Origin: Synergistaceae bacterium
GTDB lineage: Bacteria > Synergistota > Synergistia > Synergistales > Aminobacteriaceae
Assembly (NCBI GenBank): GCA_018436595.1
Contig: JAHDLC010000014.1
Coordinates: 1-64,000 of the forward strand
Length of the DNA: 64,000 nt
Direction: 5' to 3'
Below the pieces are notes generated by a model. It saw only the letters and a program-made list of their open reading frames with translations, searched no databases and was not told the DNA's origin. Every line of letters begins with the position of its first letter. The stretch's first letter is position 1. This document shows, piece by piece, positions 44,379-57,747 of the stretch. The translations under genes were made by a program, and so were the position numbers.

Positions 44379-44417
44379 ATTGGAACCGGATCTTACGACA
44401 TGAGGAGAGATAACGGC

Positions 44418-45662
44418 ATGCACGCTCTGGAAAAAACCCTCGCCCGGGCTTCCGGGAAGACGCAGGTATCGGCAGGGGAAATTGTCCTGGCGGAGGTGGA
44501 CCTCGCCGAGGTCAACGACCTCTACCTCCAGGTGATCAAATCCTTCCGCGAGCTTGGGGGAGAGAAAGTCCGCCACCCTGAAAAGACATCCTTCGTCTTC
44601 GATCACTATTCACCCGCACCCACCATCAAGGCAGCGGACAACCACAAAAAAATGAGGGAATTCTGCGCCGGGCAGGGCATCCCCCACCTTTTCGACATCG
44701 GCGAGGGAGTCTGCCACCAGGTACTGACCGAGAGCGGCATGGTCGGTCCCGGCACCATCGTCGTGGAGACCGATTCCCATACCACCACCATGGGGGCCCT
44801 CGGGGCCTTCGGAACTGGGGTGGGCGCCACCGACATGGCCACCATCCTGATCACCGGCAAGCTCTGGTTCAAGGTCCCCCGGGTGATGAACATCGTCTTC
44901 GAAGGCACTCCTCCCAAGGGGGTCATGGCCAAGGACATGATTCTCCACGCCATCGGCGACCTCAGGCAGGACGCCGCCATCTACAAGGCGGTGGAGTTCA
45001 GCGGCGGCGCTGTCCGTGAGATGGCCCAGGAGGAGCGCTTCGTCCTGTGCAACATGGCCGTGGAGATGGGGGCCAAGGCGGCCTTTATCGCCCCGGACGG
45101 CACGACTCTCGAGTATCTCTCCCGGTATGGCTGGAAGGGCGGGGAGATTCCCGCGACCGACCCGGGGTACGAATACGACTCCGTGGTCCGGTACGATGTC
45201 TCCTCGCTGACGCCGAGAGTCGCCCTTCCCGGCAGTGTGGACGCCGTTTCCGCCATTCCCGGAGAGAAGATCACCGTGGACCAGGTGTTCCTGGGCACCT
45301 GCACCGGCGGGCGGCTCAACGACATCCGCACCGCCGCTGAGATCCTGGCGGGAAAGCGTGTCGCCCCGGGAACCAGGTTCGTCGTTATTCCCGCCTCGAG
45401 GCGGATTTTTCAGGATGCCCTTCTGGCCGGATACATCGAAACGCTGGTGAACGCCGGCGCCGTCCTTTCCACTCCGGGGTGCGGTCCCTGTCTCGGCGCC
45501 CATGAAGGAATCCTGGCGCCGGGGGAAACCTGTGTTACCACCTCGAGCCGGAATTTCCCGGGAAGAATGGGAAGCACCGAGGCGGACATCTACATCGCGT
45601 CGCCCGCCACCGCAGCCGCCACAGCGCTCATGGGCAGGCTTTGCGGCGCCGACTCGCTGTAA
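44418..45662 (+). CDS. Aconitase-family hydro-lyase, large subunit (LeuC-like)
   Basis: 414 residues, the short prokaryotic LeuC/homoaconitase type. [4Fe-4S] ligand Cys residues in LGTCTGGRLNDI and STPGCGPCLGAHEG, substrate motifs ETDSHTTTMGALGAFGTGVG and SSRNFPGRMGSTEADIYIASP. Makes a two-subunit dehydratase with the next gene, isomerising or (de)hydrating a malate-type acid. Biosynthetic isopropylmalate isomerase is one possibility, but the genes sit with a TctCBA uptake system and PdxA/LeuB-type dehydrogenases and no leuA, so a catabolic acid (isopropylmalate-, citramalate- or dimethylmalate-like) is more likely. ATG 44418 follows AGGAG by about 10 nt. Confidence 0.9.
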   Translation: MHALEKTLARASGKTQVSAGEIVLAEVDLAEVNDLYLQVIKSFRELGGEKVRHPEKTSFVFDHYSPAPTIKAADNHKKMREFCAGQGIPHLFDIGEGVCHQVLTESGMVGPGTIVVETDSHTTTMGALGAFGTGVGATDMATILITGKLWFKVPRVMNIVFEGTPPKGVMAKDMILHAIGDLRQDAAIYKAVEFSGGAVREMAQEERFVLCNMAVEMGAKAAFIAPDGTTLEYLSRYGWKGGEIPATDPGYEYDSVVRYDVSSLTPRVALPGSVDAVSAIPGEKITVDQVFLGTCTGGRLNDIRTAAEILAGKRVAPGTRFVVIPASRRIFQDALLAGYIETLVNAGAVLSTPGCGPCLGAHEGILAPGETCVTTSSRNFPGRMGSTEADIYIASPATAAATALMGRLCGADSL

Positions 45663-45676
45663 GGGAGGACAGGGAA

Positions 45677-46180
45677 ATGAACATCATCAGGGGAAGGGTT
45701 TTTACCTTCGGCAACAACATCGATACGGACCAGATTTATCCCGGGCGCTATCTCGAACTCACCGAGCACGATGAAATCGCCGCCCATGTCATGGAAGGAG
45801 CGGACCCGTCCTTTGCGTCGAAAATGAAACGGGGGGACATCATCGCGGCGGGTACCAACTTCGGCTGCGGCTCCAGCCGGGAGCATGCCGTTATCACCCT
45901 GAAAAACTCGGGAGTGGCCGCGGTGGTGGCCAGGTCCTTTGCCAGAATCTTTTTCAGGAATGCCGTGAACCTCGGGCTTCTCGTGGTGGAGATCCCCGAC
46001 CTTGGAGACCTTGGGCTCCGGGACGGCGACGAAGGGGAACTTGATGTTCTCCGGGGCGTGTTTGCCGCCCCGGGCGGGAGCAGGACCTTCGCGCCCCTGC
46101 CCCCCCACGTGCTGGCCATCATCGAGGCGGGAGGGATCTTCCGCCTGTTCCGGGAAAAGGGCGCCGGTGTCTTCGGTTAG
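45677..46180 (+). CDS. Aconitase-family hydro-lyase, small subunit (LeuD-like)
   Basis: 167 residues, standard LeuD length. Swivelling-domain motifs GNNIDTDQIYPGRYLEL and GTNFGCGSSREHAVITLKNSG. It completes the active site of the LeuC-like subunit, 14 nt upstream. ATG 45677 follows GGGAGG; longer in-frame starts overlap the previous gene. Confidence 0.92.
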   Translation: MNIIRGRVFTFGNNIDTDQIYPGRYLELTEHDEIAAHVMEGADPSFASKMKRGDIIAAGTNFGCGSSREHAVITLKNSGVAAVVARSFARIFFRNAVNLGLLVVEIPDLGDLGLRDGDEGELDVLRGVFAAPGGSRTFAPLPPHVLAIIEAGGIFRLFREKGAGVFG

Positions 46181-46226
46181 TACGGAGACGGTTTTGCCGA
46201 TCCCGGACGAAAGAAAGGAGTTTTTC

Positions 46227-47243
46227 ATGGAAATGAAGCGGAAAAAGCCTGTTCTGGCAGTTCCCCTGGGAGATGCCGCCGGGATCGGTCCCGAGATAGT
46301 GGCAAAGACGGCGGCGGCGGGATTCCTCGAAAAGCATGCCCGTCCTGTGATCGTGGGTGATGAAAGAGTGCTCCGGCTGGGCATGACCATTGCCGGGAAA
46401 ATTTTTCCTTTCCGAAGTGCGGATTCCCTGGAGGAAGCGGCCGCAGGGGAGGGGCTCGCGCTGTGGAACACGGGAAGTCTCGATGCCGCAACCCTTGAGC
46501 TTGGCACAGTCTCGCCGGTCAACGGAAAAGAAGAGGGGGACAACCTTGCGGCCTGTATCGACGGCTGCAGACGGGGACTTCTGGACGGCATCTGCTTCGC
46601 CCCTCTCAACAAGGCGGCCCTGAAGCTTGGAGGGTACGGCTTCCCCAGCGAGCATGAGATGTTCGCCCATCTGTACGGAATAACGGAGGGCTTCGGCGAG
46701 ATGAACGTTCTTGAAGGTCTCTGGAATATACGGGTCACCAGTCATATCCCGCTGAAGGACGTGGCGCGGAACATCACGGTGGAGTCGGTGCTGGATACGG
46801 TCCGCCTGGGATACAAAACACTGCGGAGGGCAGGGTGCGAAGCTCCCCGGATGGCCATGGCCGCCCTGAACCCCCACGGGGGGGAGAGCGGAACCTGCGG
46901 CCGGGAGGAGATCGACGTGCTGCTTCCGGCCATCGGTGCAGCGGAAAAAGAGGGCTTTTCCGTGGAGGGGCCCTTTCCGTCGGACACCCTGTTCATCCGG
47001 GCCTTTGAAGGAAAATACGACGGCGTGGTCACCATGTACCACGACCAGGGACAGATCGCCATTAAGCTCAGGGGATTCCATCACTGCGTCACCGTCTCGG
47101 CGGGGCTGCCCCACCCGATCACCACGCCCGCCCACGGAACGGCCTACGACATCGCGGGAAAGGGGATATGCACCACGTCAGCCTTTGAGGACGCCTATGC
47201 CCTCGCCGCCAGAATGGCCCTGGGAGATATCACGGAGCGATAA
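46227..47243 (+). CDS. PdxA-family NAD-dependent dehydrogenase
   Basis: 338 residues. PdxA fold with GDAAGIGPEIVAKTAA, the metal-site His in TMYHDQGQIAIK and HHCVTVSAGLPHPITTPAHG. True PdxA makes the pyridoxal precursor by oxidative decarboxylation of 4-phosphohydroxythreonine; paralogues (PdxA2, TphB) act in catabolic operons on other 3-hydroxy acids. The cluster context points to the catabolic type. The DUF1537 acid kinase that often accompanies PdxA2 is absent, so a non-phosphorylated substrate is possible. ATG 46227 has AAAGGAG at 6 nt. Confidence 0.88.
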   Translation: MEMKRKKPVLAVPLGDAAGIGPEIVAKTAAAGFLEKHARPVIVGDERVLRLGMTIAGKIFPFRSADSLEEAAAGEGLALWNTGSLDAATLELGTVSPVNGKEEGDNLAACIDGCRRGLLDGICFAPLNKAALKLGGYGFPSEHEMFAHLYGITEGFGEMNVLEGLWNIRVTSHIPLKDVARNITVESVLDTVRLGYKTLRRAGCEAPRMAMAALNPHGGESGTCGREEIDVLLPAIGAAEKEGFSVEGPFPSDTLFIRAFEGKYDGVVTMYHDQGQIAIKLRGFHHCVTVSAGLPHPITTPAHGTAYDIAGKGICTTSAFEDAYALAARMALGDITER

Positions 47244-47373
47244 GAGAAAGAGCCGGCAGGAACGGCGGCCGGTTCTTCCGGATGGCGAAGGGAGGGATGG
47301 ATGAAGAAAGAAACCTTGCGGCAGCAGCGTGGAGAGAAGCAGGAATAACAAAAATAAGGAGGGTTACACGAAA

Positions 47374-48327
47374 ATGAAAAAAAGACATCTTCTGGTACTT
47401 CTGGTTCTGGCCGTGTCTCTGGCGTGCGCGGGCGCCCTTTCCGCCGCGGAGAACTATCCCGCGAAGCCGGTCGTGCTCGTGTACCATTCCCAGGCAGGTT
47501 CCGGAGGGGACATCTTCCTGAGGAACATGGGAAAGGCCATCGAGAAGATCATCGGCCAGCCCATCATCGTGGAAAACAGGACGGGCGGCGGCGGCTCCAA
47601 CGCCTGGATGTATTCCAAGAACGCGAAGCCCGACGGCTATACCCTGCTCGGCATTTCGTCCTCCGTCATCGCCGGTCCGCTCCAGACAAAGATGGCGGTT
47701 TCCTACGCCGACTTCAAGCCTGTAGCCCAGGTCTTCTTCGATCCCACGGTTATTTTCGTCCCCGCAAAGAGTCCGTTCAAGACCTTTGACGACGTGATCA
47801 AGGATGCCAGGGCGAATCCCGGAAAGCAGAACTGGGGCGCCGGAAACCCCGGCAGCGCCGAGACCATGTGCATCGAGAAGGTCGCCCAGATGGCCGACAT
47901 GAAGATCACCGTGGTGCCTTTCGAGGGCGGCGCCGACGTCATGGTGGAGATCATCGCCGGACGGATCGATGCGGCCATCGGCGAATATGCCGAGATCGCC
48001 AGCCAGGTGGAGGCGGGGAACATCCGCATCATCGCCTGCCTGAACACCGAGAGGATGGAGGAAGCTCCCGACGTCCCCACCCTCAAGGAGAGCGGCGTGG
48101 ACTTCGTCTTCGAGAAGATCCGCGGCATTGTTGCCCCCAAGGATGTACCGGATTCCGTGGTCAAGGTGTGGACGGACTCTCTTGCCAAGATTTACGACGA
48201 TCCCGAATTCAAGAAATACTACCGGGAGAACATGCTCGTTCCGAGATTTGTTCCCGCCGAGAAAATGCAGAAGGTCATGGACGATCAGCACGCCTTCTTC
48301 AAGGAAATGGGCAAGGGGCTCTACTAG
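47374..48327 (+). CDS. Tripartite tricarboxylate transporter substrate-binding protein (TctC)
   Basis: 317 residues with a signal peptide (HLLVLLVLAVSLACAGALSAA). BugT/TctC features: YPAKPVVLVYHSQAGSGGD, NRTGGGGSNAWMYS and VVPFEGGADVMVEIIAGRID, in the periplasmic two-lobe fold. Binds a di- or tricarboxylate and delivers it to TctA/TctB. It lies between the PdxA-like gene and tctB. Confidence 0.92.
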   Translation: MKKRHLLVLLVLAVSLACAGALSAAENYPAKPVVLVYHSQAGSGGDIFLRNMGKAIEKIIGQPIIVENRTGGGGSNAWMYSKNAKPDGYTLLGISSSVIAGPLQTKMAVSYADFKPVAQVFFDPTVIFVPAKSPFKTFDDVIKDARANPGKQNWGAGNPGSAETMCIEKVAQMADMKITVVPFEGGADVMVEIIAGRIDAAIGEYAEIASQVEAGNIRIIACLNTERMEEAPDVPTLKESGVDFVFEKIRGIVAPKDVPDSVVKVWTDSLAKIYDDPEFKKYYRENMLVPRFVPAEKMQKVMDDQHAFFKEMGKGLY

Positions 48328-48447
48328 AGCCCGTTCCGCTCACCGGATCAGACGATTTCTCGTAACCAATACTGCCTTTCGGCGTCCCTCCGCTCCCGGA
48401 TTCTTTGGGGCGGAAGGGGCGCCGGAGGCAACACAGGAAGGGAAATT

Positions 48448-48921
48448 ATGACGATTACAAACAAAAGCAAGGCTGTGCTCAATATCCTGTGGATCCTCGC
48501 CGCCGCGGCATTTTACTGGACATCAATTCCCTACAGCGAGGCGAGGACTTTCGATCCCATCGGTCCCCACGTTTTTCCCCAGATCATGTCCGGGGTCATT
48601 ATTCTCTGTTCCCTGGGCAACCTGCTTGTGATCTACCGGCATTCAAAAACAGGAACGGACACCCCGGAAACCTTCCACCCCGGAGATGCCCTCAGGATGC
48701 TCCTTGTCCTGGTTGTAAGCGGGCTGTACATCTGGCTTATGCCCGCTGCGGGCTACCTGGTCGCCACCATTTTCCTGATCTTCCTGCTCATAGCGGTCCA
48801 GGGAGAGGTGGGGCTGAGAGTCAACATTCTCGTCAGCTGCGGGTTCGCCCTGGTGCTGTACCTCCTTTTTTCAAAGGTGCTTCATATTCTTCTGCCCCAC
48901 GGATTTCTCGAGTTCATCTAG
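48448..48921 (+). CDS. Tripartite tricarboxylate transporter small membrane subunit (TctB)
   Basis: 157 residues, four hydrophobic segments, typical of the poorly conserved TctB family (FDPIGPHVFPQIMSGVI, LMPAAGYLVATIFLIFLL). Between tctC and tctA as usual. Ribosome site AGGAAGGGAAAT. Confidence 0.88.
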   Translation: MTITNKSKAVLNILWILAAAAFYWTSIPYSEARTFDPIGPHVFPQIMSGVIILCSLGNLLVIYRHSKTGTDTPETFHPGDALRMLLVLVVSGLYIWLMPAAGYLVATIFLIFLLIAVQGEVGLRVNILVSCGFALVLYLLFSKVLHILLPHGFLEFI

Positions 48922-48991
48922 TGCCCGCCCCCTGAGAGAATCTGCGCCCGCGGGTGTTTTTTAGCTTGTCATACTGGAGGCTGAGCGTCTC

Positions 48992-50485
48992 ATGGAATTT
49001 CTGCAGAATATAGCTCTCGGTTCGAGCGTGGTTTTCACTTTCAAGGGTCTCGCATCCATCATCGCCGGCGTGGTCGCCGGAACCATCGGCGGCGCCATTC
49101 CCGGCATCAACGCCACCATGACCATGGCCATCCTTCTGCCCTTCACGTGGGGGATGGACCCCACGGCGGCCATTCTCATGTACGTGGGCATTTACTGCGG
49201 TGGACAGTACGGGGGGTCCATCCCGTCGGTCCTCATCGGGACTCCCGGGACGCCCTCATCGGCGGCGACGGTGATGGACGGCTATCCTCTTCACCTTCAG
49301 GGGAAAACCGGCCTTGCCCTCGGCATGTCGCTCTACGCCAGCGTATTCGGGGGCATTGTCTCGAGCGTCGCCCTGATGATTTTCGCCATTCCCCTGGCGA
49401 AGGTGGCCCTCGCCTTCGGCCCCCCCGAGTACTTTGCCCTCGCGCTCCTCGGCCTGACCCTGGTGGCCTCCCTGTCCACGGACGTGTTCAAGGGACTGAT
49501 CGCCGCGGCTCTCGGTCTTCTTCTTGCCACCATCGGTCTCGATCCCTTCGCCGGCATCGTCCGGTTCGGTTTCGGCAGCGAACACCTGATCGAGGGGTTT
49601 GAAATAATCCCCTTCTACATGGGAATCTTCGCCCTGAGCCAGGTGCTGTACATCATTTTCAAGAAGATCCGCCGTGAGGTGGTGGAGTACAGGATAACCT
49701 CAAAGTATCCATCGACCCTCGATTTCATCCGCTGCCTTCCCTCCATGCTCATGGGATCGGCCATCGGCATGTTCGTGGGTGCCATGCCGGGAGCGGGAGC
49801 ATCCATAGCCTGCTGGCTCGGCTATAACGAGGCAAAACGGTGGTCCAGGCACCCCGAGGAGTTCGGCAAGGGCGCCCTGGAAGGAGTAGCGGCCCCGGAA
49901 GCGACGAACAACGCCGTGACGGGAGGGGCCATGGTACCTCTTCTTTCCCTGGGCATACCGGGCTCCGGCTCGACGGCGGTCATGCTTGGAGTGCTGATCA
50001 TTCACGGTCTTCGTCCGGGCCCCATGCTCTTCGTCACCAACCCGGAAATCCCCTATTCGATCTTCGTCTCCCTGTTCGTCTCGAACGTCATCATGATCTT
50101 CGTCGCCCTGATGCTGATCAAGCTCCTGATCAAGGTGGTCAACATCCCCGAGACTATAATGAACGCCTGCATCCTGGCCATCATTTTCGTCGGGGCCTAC
50201 TCGGTGAACAACAGCATGTTCGACATCTTCACGGTCCTTCTCTTCGGTGTCCTCGGGCTGATCATGAAAATTTACGATTACCCCATTACGGCCACGGCCC
50301 TCGGTTTCGTGCTTGGATACCTCGTGGAGACGAATTTCAGGAGGTCCCTCACCCTTTCCAAGGGCGACTGGTCTGTTTTCATGACAAACCCCATCTCTAT
50401 GGTGATCATCATCCTTTCCATCCTGAGCGTGGCCTACGCGGTCTACTGCAACCACTTCAGGAGAAAACGGGGGGCGGCGGAATAG
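48992..50485 (+). CDS. Tripartite tricarboxylate transporter large membrane subunit (TctA)
   Basis: 497 residues, about 12 segments. TctA motifs GGAIPGINATMTMAILLPFTWG, GGQYGGSIPSVLIGTPGTPS and the second-half EATNNAVTGGAMVPLLSLGIPGS (quoted in parts in the protein). It is the sodium- or proton-driven channel of the TctCBA system. Preceded by GGAGG. Confidence 0.94.
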   Translation: MEFLQNIALGSSVVFTFKGLASIIAGVVAGTIGGAIPGINATMTMAILLPFTWGMDPTAAILMYVGIYCGGQYGGSIPSVLIGTPGTPSSAATVMDGYPLHLQGKTGLALGMSLYASVFGGIVSSVALMIFAIPLAKVALAFGPPEYFALALLGLTLVASLSTDVFKGLIAAALGLLLATIGLDPFAGIVRFGFGSEHLIEGFEIIPFYMGIFALSQVLYIIFKKIRREVVEYRITSKYPSTLDFIRCLPSMLMGSAIGMFVGAMPGAGASIACWLGYNEAKRWSRHPEEFGKGALEGVAAPEATNNAVTGGAMVPLLSLGIPGSGSTAVMLGVLIIHGLRPGPMLFVTNPEIPYSIFVSLFVSNVIMIFVALMLIKLLIKVVNIPETIMNACILAIIFVGAYSVNNSMFDIFTVLLFGVLGLIMKIYDYPITATALGFVLGYLVETNFRRSLTLSKGDWSVFMTNPISMVIIILSILSVAYAVYCNHFRRKRGAAE

Positions 50486-50561
50486 AAAACCCCTGCCCGG
50501 AACGCTCCTGGCCGGGAAAAATGACAAGATACTCCAAAAATATGCGAGGGAGAGTCGAGAC

Positions 50562-51644
50562 ATGGCGGTCTACAAGCTTGGAATGCTGAAAGGCGACGAT
50601 ATCGGGCTGGAAGTGGTGCCGGAGGCCGTAAAGGTGCTGAACGCCGCCGCCGGAAGGTACAGCGGCGTGACGCTGGACTGGTGCGAGCTGCCGGTTGGGT
50701 ACCCCTCCTACGTCACAAGAGGGGAGACCCTTCCGGCCTCGACGCTGGAAGCCCTGTACGGGCTTGAAGGATGGATTCTCGGCCCCATAGGCCACATGGC
50801 TTACCCGAAGGACGACCCCAAGGCCATCAATCCACACCCCATCCTTCGGAGGAATTTCGACCTGGCGAGCAACATCCGGCCTTCACGGTCCCACCCTTCC
50901 CTGCCGTGTCTTCACCAGGACGTGGATCTGGTCATCATCAGGGAAAACAACGAGGGGTTCCAGCCTGACAGGAATATGTACAAAGGAATGGGGGAGTGCA
51001 TGCCCACACCGGACATGGCCCTGTCCCTCCGGGTGATCACCAGGAGAAATTCCTCCATGGTGGCCAGGACGGCCTTCGAACTGGCCCGGCAGCGGAACGG
51101 AAAGAAAAAGGTCACGGCGATCCACAAAAATACGGTCTTCAAGCTGGGATGCGGCCTCTTCATCGATACATGCAGGGAAGTGAGCAGGGAGTACCCCGAC
51201 GTGGAATTCGACACGGCGGTGGTGGACACCTTTGCCATGCACCTCGTCATGCGGCCGCAGAAATTTGACGTGGTGGTGACCACGAACATGTTCGGCGACA
51301 TCCTCTCCGACGAAGCAGCCGGGCTTGTGGGCGGTCTCGGCATGGCCCCCGGCCTCTGCGTCGGTCCCCGGTACGCCATGGCCCAGGCCACTCACGGGTC
51401 GGCGCCGGACATTGCGGGGAAGAACATCGCCAACCCCTACGCCATGATCATGTCCGCCCAGATGCTGCTCTCGTGGCTCGGGAACGGCAAAGGAGACACG
51501 GAAGCGGTCCGGGCGGCGAAAGACATAGAAACTGCCCTCGGAATGGTGCTCTCCGATAAAGAAAGCGTTACCCCGGACCTCGGGGGGACGGCGGGGACCG
51601 ATGCCATGGGCGATGCCGTCTGCAAGGCCCTCGCGTCCCTGTAG
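50562..51644 (+). CDS. Isocitrate/isopropylmalate dehydrogenase-family beta-decarboxylating dehydrogenase
   Basis: 360 residues. Family residues present: substrate Arg pair in LRRNFDLASNIRPSRS, catalytic Lys in AIHKNTVFKLG, metal Asp in TTNMFGDILSDEAAGL and the NAD motif THGSAPDIAGKNIANPYA. NAD-type rather than NADP-type spacing. Substrate could be isopropylmalate-, tartrate- or malate-like: the C-terminal parts of the substrate pocket (HMAYPKDDPKAINPHP) differ from LeuB, so biosynthetic LeuB is not assumed. Last gene of the LeuC/D-PdxA-TctCBA cluster, ending at the 18-bp terminator. Confidence 0.9.
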   Translation: MAVYKLGMLKGDDIGLEVVPEAVKVLNAAAGRYSGVTLDWCELPVGYPSYVTRGETLPASTLEALYGLEGWILGPIGHMAYPKDDPKAINPHPILRRNFDLASNIRPSRSHPSLPCLHQDVDLVIIRENNEGFQPDRNMYKGMGECMPTPDMALSLRVITRRNSSMVARTAFELARQRNGKKKVTAIHKNTVFKLGCGLFIDTCREVSREYPDVEFDTAVVDTFAMHLVMRPQKFDVVVTTNMFGDILSDEAAGLVGGLGMAPGLCVGPRYAMAQATHGSAPDIAGKNIANPYAMIMSAQMLLSWLGNGKGDTEAVRAAKDIETALGMVLSDKESVTPDLGGTAGTDAMGDAVCKALASL

Positions 51645-51708: not shown

Positions 51709-52356
51709 TCAGGCGCCGGCGGCGTCCCTCTTCTTCTTCTCGGAGACGATGTTCAGGATCTCGGCGCAGCGGATCTGGTTGAAAATTCCGCAGTAGCAGA
51801 AGTTGGAGAGTTTTTTCGCTCCCTCTTCGGCAGTGAGCTTGCCATTGTCCACCTGTTTCTGGACGTCCTCCACGAACTTGGGGGGGATCATGTGGTGGCC
51901 GCACATGGTGGTGATGGACAGGGTGTCGTCGTCGGGAAGACGGCTCTTGTTGCCCCACACGCCGAGGGAGTAGTTGACGGAGTGGGGGGTAACCCCGGCT
52001 TCCCTGCAGGCGGGAAGCACCTCTGACAGGACTCCGGTGATGACCACCGACATGCCGAGATCCTTGGCCTTGATGTCCTTCAGGAAGCCGATCACCTGTT
52101 CCTTGCTGGTGAAGACGCCCCTGATGCGGGACTTGTCGCTGATGTTCTTTCTGATCTCTTCGCTGGAGTACTGGGTCAGGGGGCCGGTTTTCACGTCGCC
52201 CCAGTTTTCCGAATGCCAGGCCTCGGCGGTGGCGATGAACTCGAGGGCCTTGTCCCTGATGTTCTTGTCGTTCACACCCTTGGTCTGGTACATGAACCAG
52301 TTGAAATCCCTCTTCTGGGACTCGATATCTCCCGATCTGTGCAGTGAGTGGGTCAT
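51709..52356 (-). CDS. Unrecognised Cys-containing protein linked to the second Tct operon
   Basis: 215 residues, soluble, no signal. I do not recognise the family. Notable motifs: MTHSLHRSG at the start, ITTMCGHHMIPPKFVEDV, and FCYCGIFNQIRCAEIL with three Cys, possibly metal-binding with CGHH. Charged lysine-rich C-terminus. It is the last gene of the operon, 30 nt after the ferredoxin-like gene, and probably works with it. Confidence 0.75.
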   Translation of the reverse strand: MTHSLHRSGDIESQKRDFNWFMYQTKGVNDKNIRDKALEFIATAEAWHSENWGDVKTGPLTQYSSEEIRKNISDKSRIRGVFTSKEQVIGFLKDIKAKDLGMSVVITGVLSEVLPACREAGVTPHSVNYSLGVWGNKSRLPDDDTLSITTMCGHHMIPPKFVEDVQKQVDNGKLTAEEGAKKLSNFCYCGIFNQIRCAEILNIVSEKKKRDAAGA

Positions 52357-52386
52357 TTCGCTCTTCCTCCTCTTCTCGTCTCTGCC

Positions 52387-53121
52387 CTACAGGGTACTGA
52401 GGGGCCTGCCGAGCCCGACGTTCACCTTGCCGCGGTGGGGCTGCGGGATGCCGAGGGCGTCAAGTTCGCTGAGTATGGGATTCTCTCCGTTTTCATCCAC
52501 CCGGAGGATGAGCCCCACGGAGAAGACGGTGTCGATTTCCTTTTCAACTTTCTGCAGGGCGCGGAAGACGTCGGACATTTTGTCCAGGGTGCAGCTCCCC
52601 TCGATGATGACGGAAAGAAGATGGTAGTCGAGGCAGGCGTCGTCCAGCTTGCCGGTCTTCATATCCGTCATGAGAGCGGAAAGGGGTGTGGTCTCGGGCG
52701 GCTCGAAGACGAGGCCCGCTTCAGCCATGGCCATGGCGACCTTCTCCGCGTCCCGGAGAAACACGCCCAGCCCCGGACGGCCCATGTCGATGGAGAAGCC
52801 CGCGAAGCCCTTCTTCACCCGGCCGCTTACGTCGTTGGTCTTCACTTCTTCGGTGCCCCGTCCCGTGACCCCTGTGACGCCGTGATTCTCCACGGGGTCG
52901 CTCATGACGTGCTGGAACTGCTTGAAAAAGCCGTCAAGCTCCACCGTCTCGATGGCTCCCACGGGACAGACCTTCTGGCGTACGCAGACATAGCACTCGG
53001 TGCACCTGGACTGGTCCACGTAGCACTTCCTCTCCTCGGGAAGATAGTGGATGGCGTCCACAGTGCAGTATTTCATGCACGTTTTGCACCCGACACATTT
53101 TTCCTTGTTGATGACCGTCAT
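52387..53121 (-). CDS. Ferredoxin-like protein with C-terminal oxidoreductase-associated domain
   Basis: 244 residues. N-terminal two-[4Fe-4S] ferredoxin (CVGCKTCMKYCTVDAI and CTECYVCVRQKVCPVGAI, residues about 8-57; the second cluster has an extra residue, CxxCxxCxxxxVCP). The remaining 180 residues are not obviously catalytic; GFSIDMGRPGLGVFLRD followed by KVAMAMAEAGL resembles, from memory, the central part of 6-hydroxynicotinate reductase-type proteins, but this is unverified. ATG 53121 follows AAAGGGTG. Downstream of tctA in the same operon, so likely an electron-transfer partner for metabolism of the imported acid. Confidence 0.8.
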   Translation of the reverse strand: MTVINKEKCVGCKTCMKYCTVDAIHYLPEERKCYVDQSRCTECYVCVRQKVCPVGAIETVELDGFFKQFQHVMSDPVENHGVTGVTGRGTEEVKTNDVSGRVKKGFAGFSIDMGRPGLGVFLRDAEKVAMAMAEAGLVFEPPETTPLSALMTDMKTGKLDDACLDYHLLSVIIEGSCTLDKMSDVFRALQKVEKEIDTVFSVGLILRVDENGENPILSELDALGIPQPHRGKVNVGLGRPLSTL

Positions 53122-53181
53122 TGATCTACACCCTTTCTCTTGTTCTGAAAAAACTGCTTTCGGCCGTCCGCCGGACATGAA

Positions 53182-54693
53182 CTACTCGGACGGAGGAACC
53201 TCTCTCGTCTTTCTGTGGTCCCTGATCATGCGGATGAAGGGCATGATCAGCGTTGCGAATCCCAGCGCGAGGAACACGAGGGAAATTGGACGGGTGAAGA
53301 AGGTGGTCCAGTCCCCGGCTGAAATTATGAGCCCTCGCCGGAAGTTGCTCTCCGCCATGGGCCCGAGGACCAGGGCCAGCACCAGGGGAGCTACGGGAAA
53401 TTCGAACTTTCTCATGAAGTAGCCCACCACGCCGAAGGAGAACATGAGGAACACGTCGGAGAGGCTGTTGTTTTCGGCGAAGGAGCCGATGGTGGCCAGG
53501 ATGAGAATCATGGGCACGAGCACCCGGTTGGGGATCTTGGTGACCTGGGAGAAGAGGCGGGCTCCCAGCATGCCGAGGACGAAGAAGGCGATGTTGGCCA
53601 GGACCATGCCGGCAAAGAGGCCGTACACCAGGTCGGGGTTCTCCCTGAAGAGCAGGGGACCCGGACGGAGTCCCTGGATCATGAAGGCGCCGACGAGAAC
53701 GGCAGTGGTTTCGGACCCGGGAATGCCCAGGGAAAGCAGGGGGACCATGGCGCCGCCGGTGGCGGCGTTGTTGGCAGCTTCAGGGGCGGCGATGCCTTCG
53801 AGGCATCCTTTGCCGAACTTCTCCGGCGTCTTTGACCACCGGCGGGCTTCGTTGTAGCTGATGAAGGAGGACATGGTAGCCCCGGCGCCGGGGAGGATGC
53901 CCACCAGGGTGCCGATTATGGAGGAGCGGATGACTGTGCCCGTCACGGAGACCAGGTCCTTCAGGCTGATGGTGAGGCCTGATATTGCCTGTTTCACGCC
54001 GCCGAGCTCCTGGATTTCCTTCTCAACAGTGATGAAGATCTGGGAGACGGCGAAGAGGCCGATGAGCACGGGGATGAAGGAGATGCCGTTCAGAAGCTCC
54101 ACGATGTCGAAGGTGAACCGGGGCACTCCCGTGACGATGTCAAGTCCCGCCGTGCCGAGGAGCAGGCCGATGACCGCCGAGATGAGTCCCTTCACCATGT
54201 TTTCGGCAGCAAGACTGGAAATGATGCTCAGACCGAAGAAGCACAGGGCGAAGTATTCCGCCGGGCCGAACATGAGGGCCATTCTGGCGAGGGGAGGGGA
54301 GAGGAAAATCAGGACGATCACGCTGAAGATTCCGCCGATGAAGGATGCCGTGGCGGCCATGCTGAGGGCCCGGCCGGGTTCGCCGTTCTGGGCCATCTCG
54401 TAGCCGTCGAAGACGGTGCATGCCGCGGCGGTGGTTCCGGGAGTCCGGAGCAGGATGGCCGTGATGGATCCGCCGTAGATGGCACCGCAGTAGATGCTGA
54501 GCAGCATGACGATGGCGGGCAGGGCGCTCATTCCATAGGTGAGGGGAAGGAGGAGGGCGATGCCCATGGAGGCGTTCAGACCGGGAAGGGCACCGATGGA
54601 GATGCCGAGGGCGCTTCCCACGAACACGCTCAGGAGATTCTGGAGGGTTACTACATCTTTGAAGCCTTCAAGCATCAGAAGGGCTGATTCCAT
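53182..54693 (-). CDS. Tripartite tricarboxylate transporter large membrane subunit (TctA), second system
   Basis: 503 residues, about 12 segments, TctA motifs as in the first system: GALPGLNASMGIALLLPLTYG, YCGAIYGGSITAILLRTPGT and ATGGAMVPLLSLGIPGSETT. Different from the first TctA across its length, so the two systems are not a recent duplication. Followed by the ferredoxin-like gene after about 60 nt. Confidence 0.94.
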   Translation of the reverse strand: MESALLMLEGFKDVVTLQNLLSVFVGSALGISIGALPGLNASMGIALLLPLTYGMSALPAIVMLLSIYCGAIYGGSITAILLRTPGTTAAACTVFDGYEMAQNGEPGRALSMAATASFIGGIFSVIVLIFLSPPLARMALMFGPAEYFALCFFGLSIISSLAAENMVKGLISAVIGLLLGTAGLDIVTGVPRFTFDIVELLNGISFIPVLIGLFAVSQIFITVEKEIQELGGVKQAISGLTISLKDLVSVTGTVIRSSIIGTLVGILPGAGATMSSFISYNEARRWSKTPEKFGKGCLEGIAAPEAANNAATGGAMVPLLSLGIPGSETTAVLVGAFMIQGLRPGPLLFRENPDLVYGLFAGMVLANIAFFVLGMLGARLFSQVTKIPNRVLVPMILILATIGSFAENNSLSDVFLMFSFGVVGYFMRKFEFPVAPLVLALVLGPMAESNFRRGLIISAGDWTTFFTRPISLVFLALGFATLIMPFIRMIRDHRKTREVPPSE

Positions 54694-54708
54694 AATCCGG
54701 TCCCCCTC

Positions 54709-55167
54709 CTATCCCAGGAATCCCGCGGGAACGGGGACCTTGAGCAGATTGGCGAATACGAAGTACACAGCGAAGACGACGAGCAGTACGGGGATCATGT
54801 CCATAATCCGGAACCTCCTGGTGGTGATCGCCGTGACGGTGCATGCGAAAAGGGGAGCCATAATCAGGAAGCCGACCTCCGGAAGGAAGTACCAGAAGGC
54901 GTAGCAGAACCCTGCCGTTACGGCCACGGCACCGATGCCGGCAAAGGAGGCCGTCGTCGGCTTCGTGAGTTTTTTCAGATCAAGCAAAGCCATGAGTGCC
55001 GAAAGAACCATGAGCGCCACCGCAAAGAGCTGCGGAAAGGCATGGGCTCCCACCTGGCCGTCTATTTCGATTTCAGGCACGTAATTTCCGGCTTCCCTGA
55101 ATATGAGGAAGCCGAAGGCAAACAAACAGACCCCGAGTACCGAATTGATATATCGAAAATTTTTCAT
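54709..55167 (-). CDS. TctB small membrane subunit, second system
   Basis: 152 residues, four hydrophobic segments: INSVLGVCLFAFGFLIF, QLFAVALMVLSALMALLD, IGAVAVTAGFCYAFWYF and MIPVLLVVFAVYFVFANLL. Between tctC and tctA. Standard TctB size. Confidence 0.87.
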   Translation of the reverse strand: MKNFRYINSVLGVCLFAFGFLIFREAGNYVPEIEIDGQVGAHAFPQLFAVALMVLSALMALLDLKKLTKPTTASFAGIGAVAVTAGFCYAFWYFLPEVGFLIMAPLFACTVTAITTRRFRIMDMIPVLLVVFAVYFVFANLLKVPVPAGFLG

Positions 55168-55247
55168 GTTTTGCCCCCACAGTTTTTCGTACTGGTGTAC
55201 GGACGGGGTGCGCCCATTTCAGCGCGCACCCCGCAAGAAAAGATGCC

Positions 55248-56219
55248 TTACTTCTTCTTTTTGACGAGCCCCAGTTCCTTCAGCTCGTTTTTGTAGAAGA
55301 GATCCTGCTCCGCCACGAAGAGGGCGAAATCGGTGCTGTTGAGGTATGCCGCCTCGAGCTGATTCTCGGCAAGGTACTTCTGGAAACCTTCCTGGGCCAC
55401 GACCTTCTCGATAGCGGAGGAGAGATAGTCGAGGGCTTCCTTGGGCGTTCCCTTGGGAGCCACGACACCGCGCCACGTGGGAACCACCACGTCAAAGCCG
55501 AGTTCCTTGAAGGTGGGAACGTCGGGGAAAGCCTTCCACCGGTCGGCGCTGAAGCTGCCGAGGAGCCGGACCTGCCCGGCGGCGATCTGCTCGGTCAGTT
55601 CGCTGGGGTTGTTGGTCAGCACGTCGATGTGGCCGCCCATGAGGGAGGCGAGGGAGTCGGCGCCGCCCTCGAAGGGAACGAACCGGGACTTGATCCCCGA
55701 GAGCTTGGAAAGCTTTGCGGAAGCCACGTGGTCGGAGGTTCCCACGCCGAAGGTTCCCCAGCTCACGCCGCCCTTCTGCTTCGCGTAGGCAACGAATTCC
55801 TCCCAGGTTTTGTAGGGAGCGTCGGTGCTCACGGCGACCACGTTGGTCTCCACGGCGACCCGGGCGATCATGTCGAAGTCAGCGGGACCCTTGGGGGAGC
55901 GGCCGAGGGCGGGCGTCAGAACGAAATTGGTGGTGACGGCGAGGATGGTGTGGCCGTCAGCGGGCTTGGAAGCCGTGTAGGCCATTCCCACGGCACCGCC
56001 GCCGCCGCTCTTGTTCACGGGAACGAAGGGCTGGGAAACGTAGGGCTCCATGAGCCTGGCCATGTTCCGGACGAAGATGTCGCTGCCGCCGCCGGGGGAG
56101 GCCCAGATAACCCATTCGATGGGCTTTTCGGGATAGGCCGCGAAGGCCGCTTCGGTCCCGGAAAGCAGAGCCGCGAAGAACGCAAGAACCAGAAATGCTG
56201 CAAGTCTCGTTTTTCTCAC
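55248..56219 (-). CDS. TctC substrate-binding protein, second system
   Basis: 323 residues with a signal peptide (RLAAFLVLAFFAALLSGTEAAFA). Family motifs YPEKPIEWVIWASPGGGSD, VPVNKSGGGGAVGMAY and RFVPFEGGADSLASLMGG. The charged pocket residues cannot name the ligand. Starts with GTG, overlapping the GntR stop (GTGA); GGAGG is 7 nt upstream. Confidence 0.92.
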   Translation of the reverse strand: MRKTRLAAFLVLAFFAALLSGTEAAFAAYPEKPIEWVIWASPGGGSDIFVRNMARLMEPYVSQPFVPVNKSGGGGAVGMAYTASKPADGHTILAVTTNFVLTPALGRSPKGPADFDMIARVAVETNVVAVSTDAPYKTWEEFVAYAKQKGGVSWGTFGVGTSDHVASAKLSKLSGIKSRFVPFEGGADSLASLMGGHIDVLTNNPSELTEQIAAGQVRLLGSFSADRWKAFPDVPTFKELGFDVVVPTWRGVVAPKGTPKEALDYLSSAIEKVVAQEGFQKYLAENQLEAAYLNSTDFALFVAEQDLFYKNELKELGLVKKKK

Positions 56220-56965
56220 AATAATTCCTCCTTCAATTTCGTTTCCCTGTCCTCCTGGTGCGATGAACTGTGAATATGCTCCAGAGTGTTCCTTTCCACC
56301 TCCCCGTCAGCGGAATCGAGCGATGCCAGTATGGAGTTCAAAGCGTTGCCGAGGTGAATCCGGATGCATTCCCCGGCAGCGGCTTCATCCCCTTTTTCGA
56401 GGGCTGCGATGAGGTTCCTGTGTTCTTCGATGACCCTGGGGATGCGGTTGGGCGTATTCACGGACCGGATGCGGAAGAGCCGGGCGCTGCTCTGCACCTG
56501 CTCGATGAAGCCCGTAAGAATGGAACTGTCGGCGGCGGAGAGGATGATTCTGTGGAACTCCACGTTCGCCTCGATGATGCATTCCATGTCGGTACGGCTG
56601 GCACAGGCCTCCATGCGCTTCACGTTCTTCCGGAGCTTTTCGAGAATTCCGGCGGTCAGGTTCGGGAGGGCCCACTGGACCGCGAGAGTCTCCAGGTGGA
56701 GGCGGAGTGTGTAGAGCTGGACGATGTCTTTTTTCTCCAGCCTGGCGACGACAAAACCCCTGTTCGGGAGCTTTTTGACGAGCCGTTTTGCCACGAGGCT
56801 GTTCAGGGCGTCATGGACGGGCGTCCTGCTGATGCCCATGCTCTCCGCCAGCGTACGTTCCACAAGGCGGGTGCCGGGGGGGATCTTTCCCTCCAGGATG
56901 GCGGAGCGGAGTTCTTCGAAGGCTCTTTCGCTGAGACTCTTCATTGCGGGGAGCTTTGAAATCAT
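56216..56965 (-). CDS. GntR/FCD regulator of the second Tct operon
   Basis: 249 residues: winged helix with ESMGISRTPVHDALNSLVAK and FCD domain (NVEFHRIILSAAD, EEHRNLIAALEKGD; ending in acidic HSSSHQEDRE). ATG 56965 has GGAGGG at 6 nt. First gene of the operon and probably its repressor via the palindrome at 57067-57081. Confidence 0.92.
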   Translation of the reverse strand: MISKLPAMKSLSERAFEELRSAILEGKIPPGTRLVERTLAESMGISRTPVHDALNSLVAKRLVKKLPNRGFVVARLEKKDIVQLYTLRLHLETLAVQWALPNLTAGILEKLRKNVKRMEACASRTDMECIIEANVEFHRIILSAADSSILTGFIEQVQSSARLFRIRSVNTPNRIPRVIEEHRNLIAALEKGDEAAAGECIRIHLGNALNSILASLDSADGEVERNTLEHIHSSSHQEDRETKLKEELL

Positions 56966-57066
56966 CTGTTTCCCTCCGCGGCCCGCCCTGGTCTGCATTG
57001 AAAGGGACGTGATCCGCTCCGGAGCTTACTCCAGAAAGCGGGGCATTGGCCTGAATTTTGGAATGC

Positions 57067-57180: not shown

Positions 57181-57652
57181 TGCTTGTCATCCTGAGCGGA
57201 GGAGGATCTCGGGTTGGACTCTTCCAGATACAAAAGCAGGTCCCTCGTCGCTCCGCTCACTCGGGACGACAAGGCCAGGTTGTCATCCTGAGCGAATGCG
57301 AAGGATCTGCAGTTGGTTCTCTTGAGACGCCTCCAAGATCCTCCCCTTCCGGGGATGTTACGCGATCGCGCCGCTCACTCGGGACGACAAGGCCAGGTTG
57401 TCATCCTGAGCGAATGCGAAGGATCTGCAGTTGGTTCTCATGAGACGCCTCCAAGATCCTCCCCCTCCGGGGATGCTCCCTCCGCTTCGCTCTGGATGCT
57501 CCGCGAGCGCGATCGCTCCGCTCACTCGGGACGACAAGGCCAGGTTGTCATCCTGAGCGAATGCGAAGGATCTGCAGTTGGTTCTCATGAGACACCTCCA
57601 AGATCCTCCCCTTCCGGGGATGTTACGCGATCGCTCCGCTCCGTCGGGACGA
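57181..57652. repeat. Dispersed repeat cluster 2 with three tandem copies
   Basis: No gene; the open frames here are repeats of one peptide and are not coding. A unit beginning TGTCATCCTGAGCGAATGCG, containing GGATCTGCAGTTGGTTCTC and ending in ACTCGGGACGACAAGGCCAG, starts at 57281, 57399 and 57546 (spacing 118 then 147 bp, the second unit carrying a 29-bp insert). An older degenerate copy lies at 57181-57280. Confidence 0.88.
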
Positions 57653-57718
57653 AATCCAAAGGCAAACATCAGGCCCGTCGTTGTATCCCGACACAGTTTT
57701 ATAACGAGACAAACACGG

Positions 57719-57747
57719 TTGACAAAAATTCCCATTTTGCATAGAAT
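57719..57747 (+). promoter_or_regulatory. Promoter for the T-box-asd operon
   Basis: TTGACA (57719-57724), 17-nt spacer, TAGAAT (57742-57747). Expected start about 57754, just before stem I of the T-box. Confidence 0.8.

Follow-up and report, generated by a model that had tools for sequence, protein, structure and literature searches.

A compact minus-strand operon, running from 56998 to 51709 of the 64,000 nt stretch of Synergistaceae bacterium DNA analysed here (assembly GCA_018436595.1, contig JAHDLC010000014.1; hereafter 'the window'), encodes a GntR-family regulator with an FCD domain, the carboxylate importer proteins TctC, TctB and TctA, and two further proteins, FdX and CysX; these names, like the c-numbers used below, are working labels of the present analysis. 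FdX and CysX are encoded as a pair, have been inherited together, conserve a distinctive set of Cys, His, Arg and Asn residues, and are linked both to TctCBA transporters and to NAD(P)H-flavoproteins. We tentatively propose, at a little under an even chance, that they are the two subunits of a single undescribed Fe-S oxidoreductase, the substrate of which would be a di- or tricarboxylate imported by TctCBA, or one of its hydroxy- or unsaturated products, bound at a putative three-Cys cluster in CysX. TctA, TctB and TctC are encoded together in their standard form; like the GntR, FCD and 4Fe-4S domains, they exceed the Pfam cut-off. Both they and the regulator are as found in other TctCBA operons with a GntR/FCD protein; the difference lies in the addition of two genes of no known family. 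An earlier sequence-only reading of this DNA had described the six genes as one operon, with which the gene order, gaps and Pfam assignments agree, and had rightly set the last two apart from the standard Tct components.

A single scan of bacterial and archaeal genome contigs for CysX matched 272 stretches, 241 of which were relatives. Judging by record titles, orthologues are present in Bacillota, Thermodesulfobacteriota, Synergistota, Chloroflexota, Bipolaricaulota, Methylomirabilota and two archaeal metagenome-assembled genomes (MAGs); most relatives come from MAGs, and single odd placements may represent misbinning. As orthologues span Bacillota, Thermodesulfobacteriota, Chloroflexota and other phyla, what the sequence-only reading noticed is more than chance. 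Within the Synergistota, the FdX C-terminal domain and CysX were each detected in 19 of 185 genomes, and these were the same 19. FdX was also found in five of 391 Clostridia sampled from a larger group, the centre genome included, and in all eight genomes of the class to which G202 belongs, at one to six copies each; the number of FdX copies in a genome can reach ten. Searches of plasmids returned no match beyond the chance level.

Of 104 CysX copies examined, 97 have FdX immediately upstream, with a median gap of 25 bp, and four of the seven CysX copies lacking an FdX in this position are at contig ends. The distance matrices of the two proteins, calculated from 94 of the 97 pairs (three being left out for coverage), are strongly correlated (r = 0.94), the best of 500 permutations reaching 0.13. 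One apparent FdX-CysX fusion of 490 residues (L072:7158-8630) was read as a frameshift, since the conserved C terminus of FdX is in a different frame from the linker.

The CysX alignment consists of the window copy and the 102 of 104 copies that passed a coverage filter. Nine residues (H3, H6, R7, N29, C152, H154, C187, C189 and N193) are conserved in all 103 sequences; H125, D17 and R196 are each present in 102, and N51 in 101. Exactly three Cys, C152, C187 and C189, are invariant, alongside four His that are invariant or nearly so. The two Cys motifs highlighted by the sequence-only reading are both present, and are conserved in part: CGHH reduces to a core of MCGH (C152 and H154), H155 being variable, and FCYCGxxxxxRC to CxCGxxN..R (C187, C189, N193 and R196), C197 being variable. 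The AlphaFold monomer of CysX has a predicted local distance difference test score (pLDDT) of 94.2 and a predicted template modelling score (pTM) of 0.90.

Three conserved Cys are also a feature of IspH, in which the substrate oxygen is held on a unique iron and electrons are passed from NADPH through ferredoxin reductase to ferredoxin (PMC8837944). The likeness is a functional analogy and not family membership: CysX has no sequence match to IspH, is accompanied by a dedicated FdX partner, and occurs in a carboxylate context. The His residues bear on a different explanation, that CysX binds a single Zn, Fe or Ni ion and is, for instance, a hydrolase, lyase or sensor, to which FdX supplies, or from which it reports, a redox state. 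H3, H6, H154 and H125 are indeed conserved to the same degree as the three Cys; however, an invariable partner in the form of a two-cluster ferredoxin, along with electron-input modules, would be odd for a redox-inert enzyme, and we regard this explanation as unlikely.

The N-terminal approximately 65 residues of FdX resemble 2[4Fe-4S] ferredoxins, with eight cluster Cys, of which seven are conserved in 96 of 96 sequences and one in 95. Unlike these ferredoxins, FdX has in addition a C-terminal domain of around 175 residues that belongs to no known family. R85, T87, E89, K91, R112, E171 and K229 are likewise invariant in the 96 sequences. In the AlphaFold monomer (pLDDT 87.7, pTM 0.86), the most conserved stretch of the protein, GRGTEExKTNDVTGR, at roughly residues 84-98 of the 241-residue model, lies in the blocks of lowest confidence; it may be a loop that becomes ordered only when CysX or a ligand is bound. 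Among the long FdX frames inspected (L035, L036, L069, L074, L114 and L145), a true extra domain was evident in L114 only; the 464-residue frame of L145 is merely open upstream of the normal start.

Neither CysX nor residues ~80-263 of FdX produced anything above the cut-off in a Pfam scan of the window proteins, an Astacin match falling below it, and the best 25 of 76 NCBIfam matches contained only generic ferredoxin matches, again below the cut-off. Individual scans of 51 diverse CysX proteins and 41 FdX C-terminal domains against Pfam and NCBIfam (E <= 0.01) reached unrelated models for a few members, none of them consistently; the commonest was SHOCT-like (5/51). The IspH/LytB family was not among the families listed for the 51 at this threshold. 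The Pfam Aconitase domain was found in neither CysX nor FdX, and nor was the Oxidored_FMN domain of old yellow enzyme (OYE) and enoate reductase, which is present in a neighbouring gene at other loci. Profile searches of PDB sequences with CysX and the FdX C-terminal domain gave nothing convincing: CysX matches to Hax3 (0.00043) and XPA (0.015) cover short stretches at CGH-like motifs or lack a domain match, and were attributed to chance. With a probability of only 0.5% in a comparison of CysX with the FdX C-terminal domain, an internal duplication was rejected.

The AlphaFold models of both proteins, a check that the sequence-only reading had recommended, gave no Foldseek match in the PDB at E <= 0.001. 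VIA-align superimposed the ferredoxin part of FdX on solved Fe-S domains with Z scores of up to 8.0 (61 residues, 1.9 Å), and gave Z scores below 8, with no significant match in the PDB, for the rest of FdX and for CysX. Scores below 8 are usual for unrelated ferredoxin-like arrangements, the beta-alpha-beta form of which is common and says nothing on function; equally, the lack of a listed fold match is not proof of a new fold. The pair is not named in the literature searched on 6-hydroxynicotinate reductase, CODH/CooF/FNOR clusters, Tct with Synergist or 4Fe-4S, and tricarballylate, aconitate or rumen, and goes unmentioned in the available parts of PMC3511419 and PMC13056359.

The genomic context of CysX was surveyed at the best-scoring 80 of the 241 relatives (L035-L114), counting genes on the same strand within 8 kb; because only the best-scoring loci were retained, these counts lean towards closer relatives. 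TctA was present at 41 of the 80 loci, TctB at 38 and TctC at 37. Amongst 48 genomes with TctA counts, a same-strand TctA was seen within 8 kb at 29 of the 48 loci, against 0.8 expected by chance; some of these counts are lower bounds (at least 28), and doubling all of them still gives fewer than two expected. The association with TctCBA, failing which in other genomes the sequence-only reading was to be abandoned, therefore recurs elsewhere. Mapped onto the CysX tree, the Tct label requires 20 changes, compared with a mean of 31.9 when shuffled; as at least 14 changes are forced by starred branches, the link has altered many times and recurs.

Closer to the window, TctA orthologues with at least 82% identity are found only in G001, G002 and G005, all of which have FdX-CysX of the window type, and an Iso_dh orthologue follows in G001 and G002 only. 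In G003, G004, G006 and G023, the best TctA has an identity of no more than 49%. The host genome itself has 18 matches to TctA, one of which adjoins FdX-CysX, and a single copy each of FdX and CysX; this means that the pair serves a single transporter and not the Tct family at large. These 18 matches are found in a 3.2 Mb genome, several being broken or located at contig ends.

Hydratase and dehydrogenase genes of the LeuC/LeuD, Iso_dh and MmgE/PrpD types recur beside FdX-CysX, and we take these to be enzymes of hydroxy- and unsaturated di- and tricarboxylates. Over the 80 loci, the numbers were 17 for GntR, 12 for Iso_dh, ten for LeuC, eight for LeuD, four for PrpD-type (c30) and two for OYE. 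Further partners at some loci are an enoate-reductase-like flavoprotein (OYE/BaiCD-type) and a CoA-transferase. The count for the HpcH label was not used, as the label falls partly on frames overlapping other genes, and only the HpcH protein of L087 was confirmed. In the window, a plus-strand set of genes at 44400-51644, consisting of a second Tct operon and an Iso_dh-family gene that we propose as a same-pathway partner of FdX-CysX, meets the CysX gene tail to tail. Since the same kinds of gene form a single run with FdX-CysX in other phyla, both operons probably contribute to a common pathway.

This neighbourhood does not bear out the heterocyclic acid suggested by the sequence-only reading, which had suggested a resemblance of FdX to sequences of the 6-hydroxynicotinate reductase type. 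That the pair is a split relative of this enzyme acting on such an acid is very improbable: the neighbours indicate aliphatic hydroxy- or tricarboxylic acids, the only longer protein seen with an FdX C-terminal domain is that of L114, whose extra part is of the NfnB/GltD type, and no Mo-hydroxylase was among the best 25 of 78 families when 80 flanking proteins, of 150 candidates, were scanned. The six MoCoBD_1 matches in the host genome are all on other contigs, and none is in the window.

Electron-transfer genes also recur near CysX, with CODH-like proteins at 20 of the 80 loci, FNOR at 21 and CooF-like proteins at 20. The set seen at about 20 of the 80 loci combines a PadH-like FAD/NAD(P)H protein with a 4Fe-4S protein resembling CooF and a CODH-like protein of 495 residues. 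The CODH-like partner (c7; L054:2999-4483 and 16 relatives) resembles Ni-CODH at its N terminus only, aligning over approximately 83 residues; it accompanies FdX-CysX in other genomes and is absent from the window. No conserved C-cluster ligand set is apparent in the 17 sequences, in which only four Cys, all N-terminal, are conserved; of the alignment columns holding C, H, D, E or K, those conserved in 16 or 17 sequences are K7, E33, D39, C48, C52, C57, C71 and E237 only. At L114:5864-7984, FdX has an NfnB/PreT/GltD-type NAD(P)H-FAD stretch (residues ~52-454 or beyond) between its ferredoxin and C-terminal parts. PreT, NfnB and GltD are electron-input modules. As the window contains no module of this kind, its FdX must draw electrons from elsewhere. 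Both the three-protein set and the L114 insert appear to represent electron transfer from NAD(P)H to Fe-S centres, which would fit a relay role for FdX, with CysX at the end of the chain.

The diversity of these partners (OYE/BaiCD-type, CooF/CODH-like/FNOR, CoA-transferase and PrpD), and the presence of up to ten FdX copies in one genome, could instead suggest that FdX-CysX is an adaptor carrying electrons from ferredoxin or NAD(P)H to a neighbouring catalyst, such as the enoate-reductase-like flavoprotein, the CODH-like protein or a LeuC-type enzyme. We consider this rather unlikely, though, as there is no catalytic partner that recurs at every locus, some loci, the window operon included, hold only FdX, CysX, a transporter and a regulator, and the invariant His/Arg/Asn/Cys set of CysX exceeds the needs of a plain carrier. 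The CooF-like, CODH-like and FAD-NAD(P)H proteins encoded alongside are also compatible with either direction of transfer, including an oxidative one in which the acid is dehydrogenated and low-potential electrons reach ferredoxin or NAD via FNOR; however, the Tct/LeuCD/Iso_dh sets already include an NAD-type dehydrogenase, making this improbable. Of the reductive step on the imported acid put forward by the sequence-only reading, the redox character is indirectly supported by the eight FdX cluster Cys, the NAD(P)H-flavoprotein partners and the NfnB/GltD-type domain of L114, and the reductive direction is plausible.

If FdX and CysX do form one oxidoreductase, TctCBA would import a small di- or tricarboxylate, with transcription of the operon under the control of the GntR/FCD regulator. 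FdX would pass electrons one at a time, by way of its two [4Fe-4S] clusters, to CysX, where a putative [4Fe-4S] cluster on C152, C187 and C189 would leave its fourth iron free for a substrate oxygen, by analogy with IspH. The THxLHR motif, H125 and H154 of CysX, together with the GRGTEExKTNDVTGR loop of FdX, may complete an active site where the two subunits meet. Overall, the reaction would be the loss of a hydroxyl group or the saturation of a C=C bond; it is most likely reductive, the reverse direction being possible. We infer the type of cluster, the direction and the substrate, and several points weigh against this scheme. At 26 of the 80 loci, the same strand carries neither a TctA nor a CODH-like gene within 8 kb, several of these contigs being short; the C152/C187/C189 site is a prediction from conservation, and given the conserved His, the site could instead hold a single Zn, Fe or Ni ion; and where the enoate-reductase-like flavoprotein is present, it could itself be the reductant of the substrate.

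The GntR/FCD and TctC genes overlap by 4 bp, and the gaps between TctC and TctB, TctB and TctA, and FdX and CysX are 80 bp, 15 bp and 30 bp, respectively. FdX more likely starts at 53121, giving a 244-residue protein, than at the listed 53178, because the stretch AAAGGGTG precedes 53121 and L002, a relative in the same genus, has its listed open reading frame (ORF) beginning at the same residue; the gap from TctA is 60 bp with this start and 3 bp with the listed one. The position 56965, given as the operon's boundary in the sequence-only reading, is a later in-frame start of the regulator. Upstream of the regulator, at 57313-57744, the translation of one ORF includes two near-identical stretches (ILSECEGSAVGSHETPPRSSPSGD), a short direct repeat.

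Features of the FdX-CysX operon and the adjoining plus-strand genes, in window coordinates
Feature	Position	Strand	Basis
GntR-family regulator with FCD domain, first gene	56216..56998	-	PF00392 4.1e-16, PF07729 2.9e-28
TctC, periplasmic solute-binding protein	55248..56219	-	PF03401 2.8e-48
TctB, small membrane subunit	54709..55167	-	PF07331 2.6e-12
TctA, large membrane subunit	53182..54693	-	PF01970 5.5e-166
FdX, two [4Fe-4S] motifs and an undescribed C-terminal domain	52387..53121	-	Fer4 matches; listed ORF 52387-53178
FdX C-terminal domain, motifs GRGTEExKTNDVTGR and KxNxGxGxP	52390..52914	-	Alignment of 41 sequences; no Pfam, NCBIfam or PDB family
CysX, 215 aa, THxLHR N terminus, MCGH and CxCGxxN motifs	51709..52356	-	Conservation in 103 sequences; AlphaFold model
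Iso_dh-family dehydrogenase, convergent	50562..51644	+	PF00180 2.6e-81; 64 bp between stop codons
Neighbouring operon: aconitase/LeuC-like, LeuD-like, PdxA-like, TctC, TctB, TctA	44400..50485	+	Pfam/NCBIfam

It is possible, though we hold it to be doubtful, that FdX-CysX represents a new class of reductases driven by ferredoxin, which would use a substrate-binding [4Fe-4S] cluster on three Cys to remove a hydroxyl group reductively, as IspH does, or to reduce a C=C bond in aliphatic di- and tricarboxylates in anaerobes, with a fold unrelated to that of IspH and with the paralogues within one genome tuned to different acids. Were such a cluster present in CysX, it would extend a short list by one more type of enzyme. 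Most of the many Tct transporters lack a known ligand; a redox enzyme linked to one of them narrows the candidates for the imported acid. A pair that lies outside Pfam, NCBIfam and the PDB, yet is found in anaerobes of many phyla and is linked to a carboxylate importer more often than expected by chance, points to a reaction that is missing from the current picture of how anaerobes metabolise organic acids.

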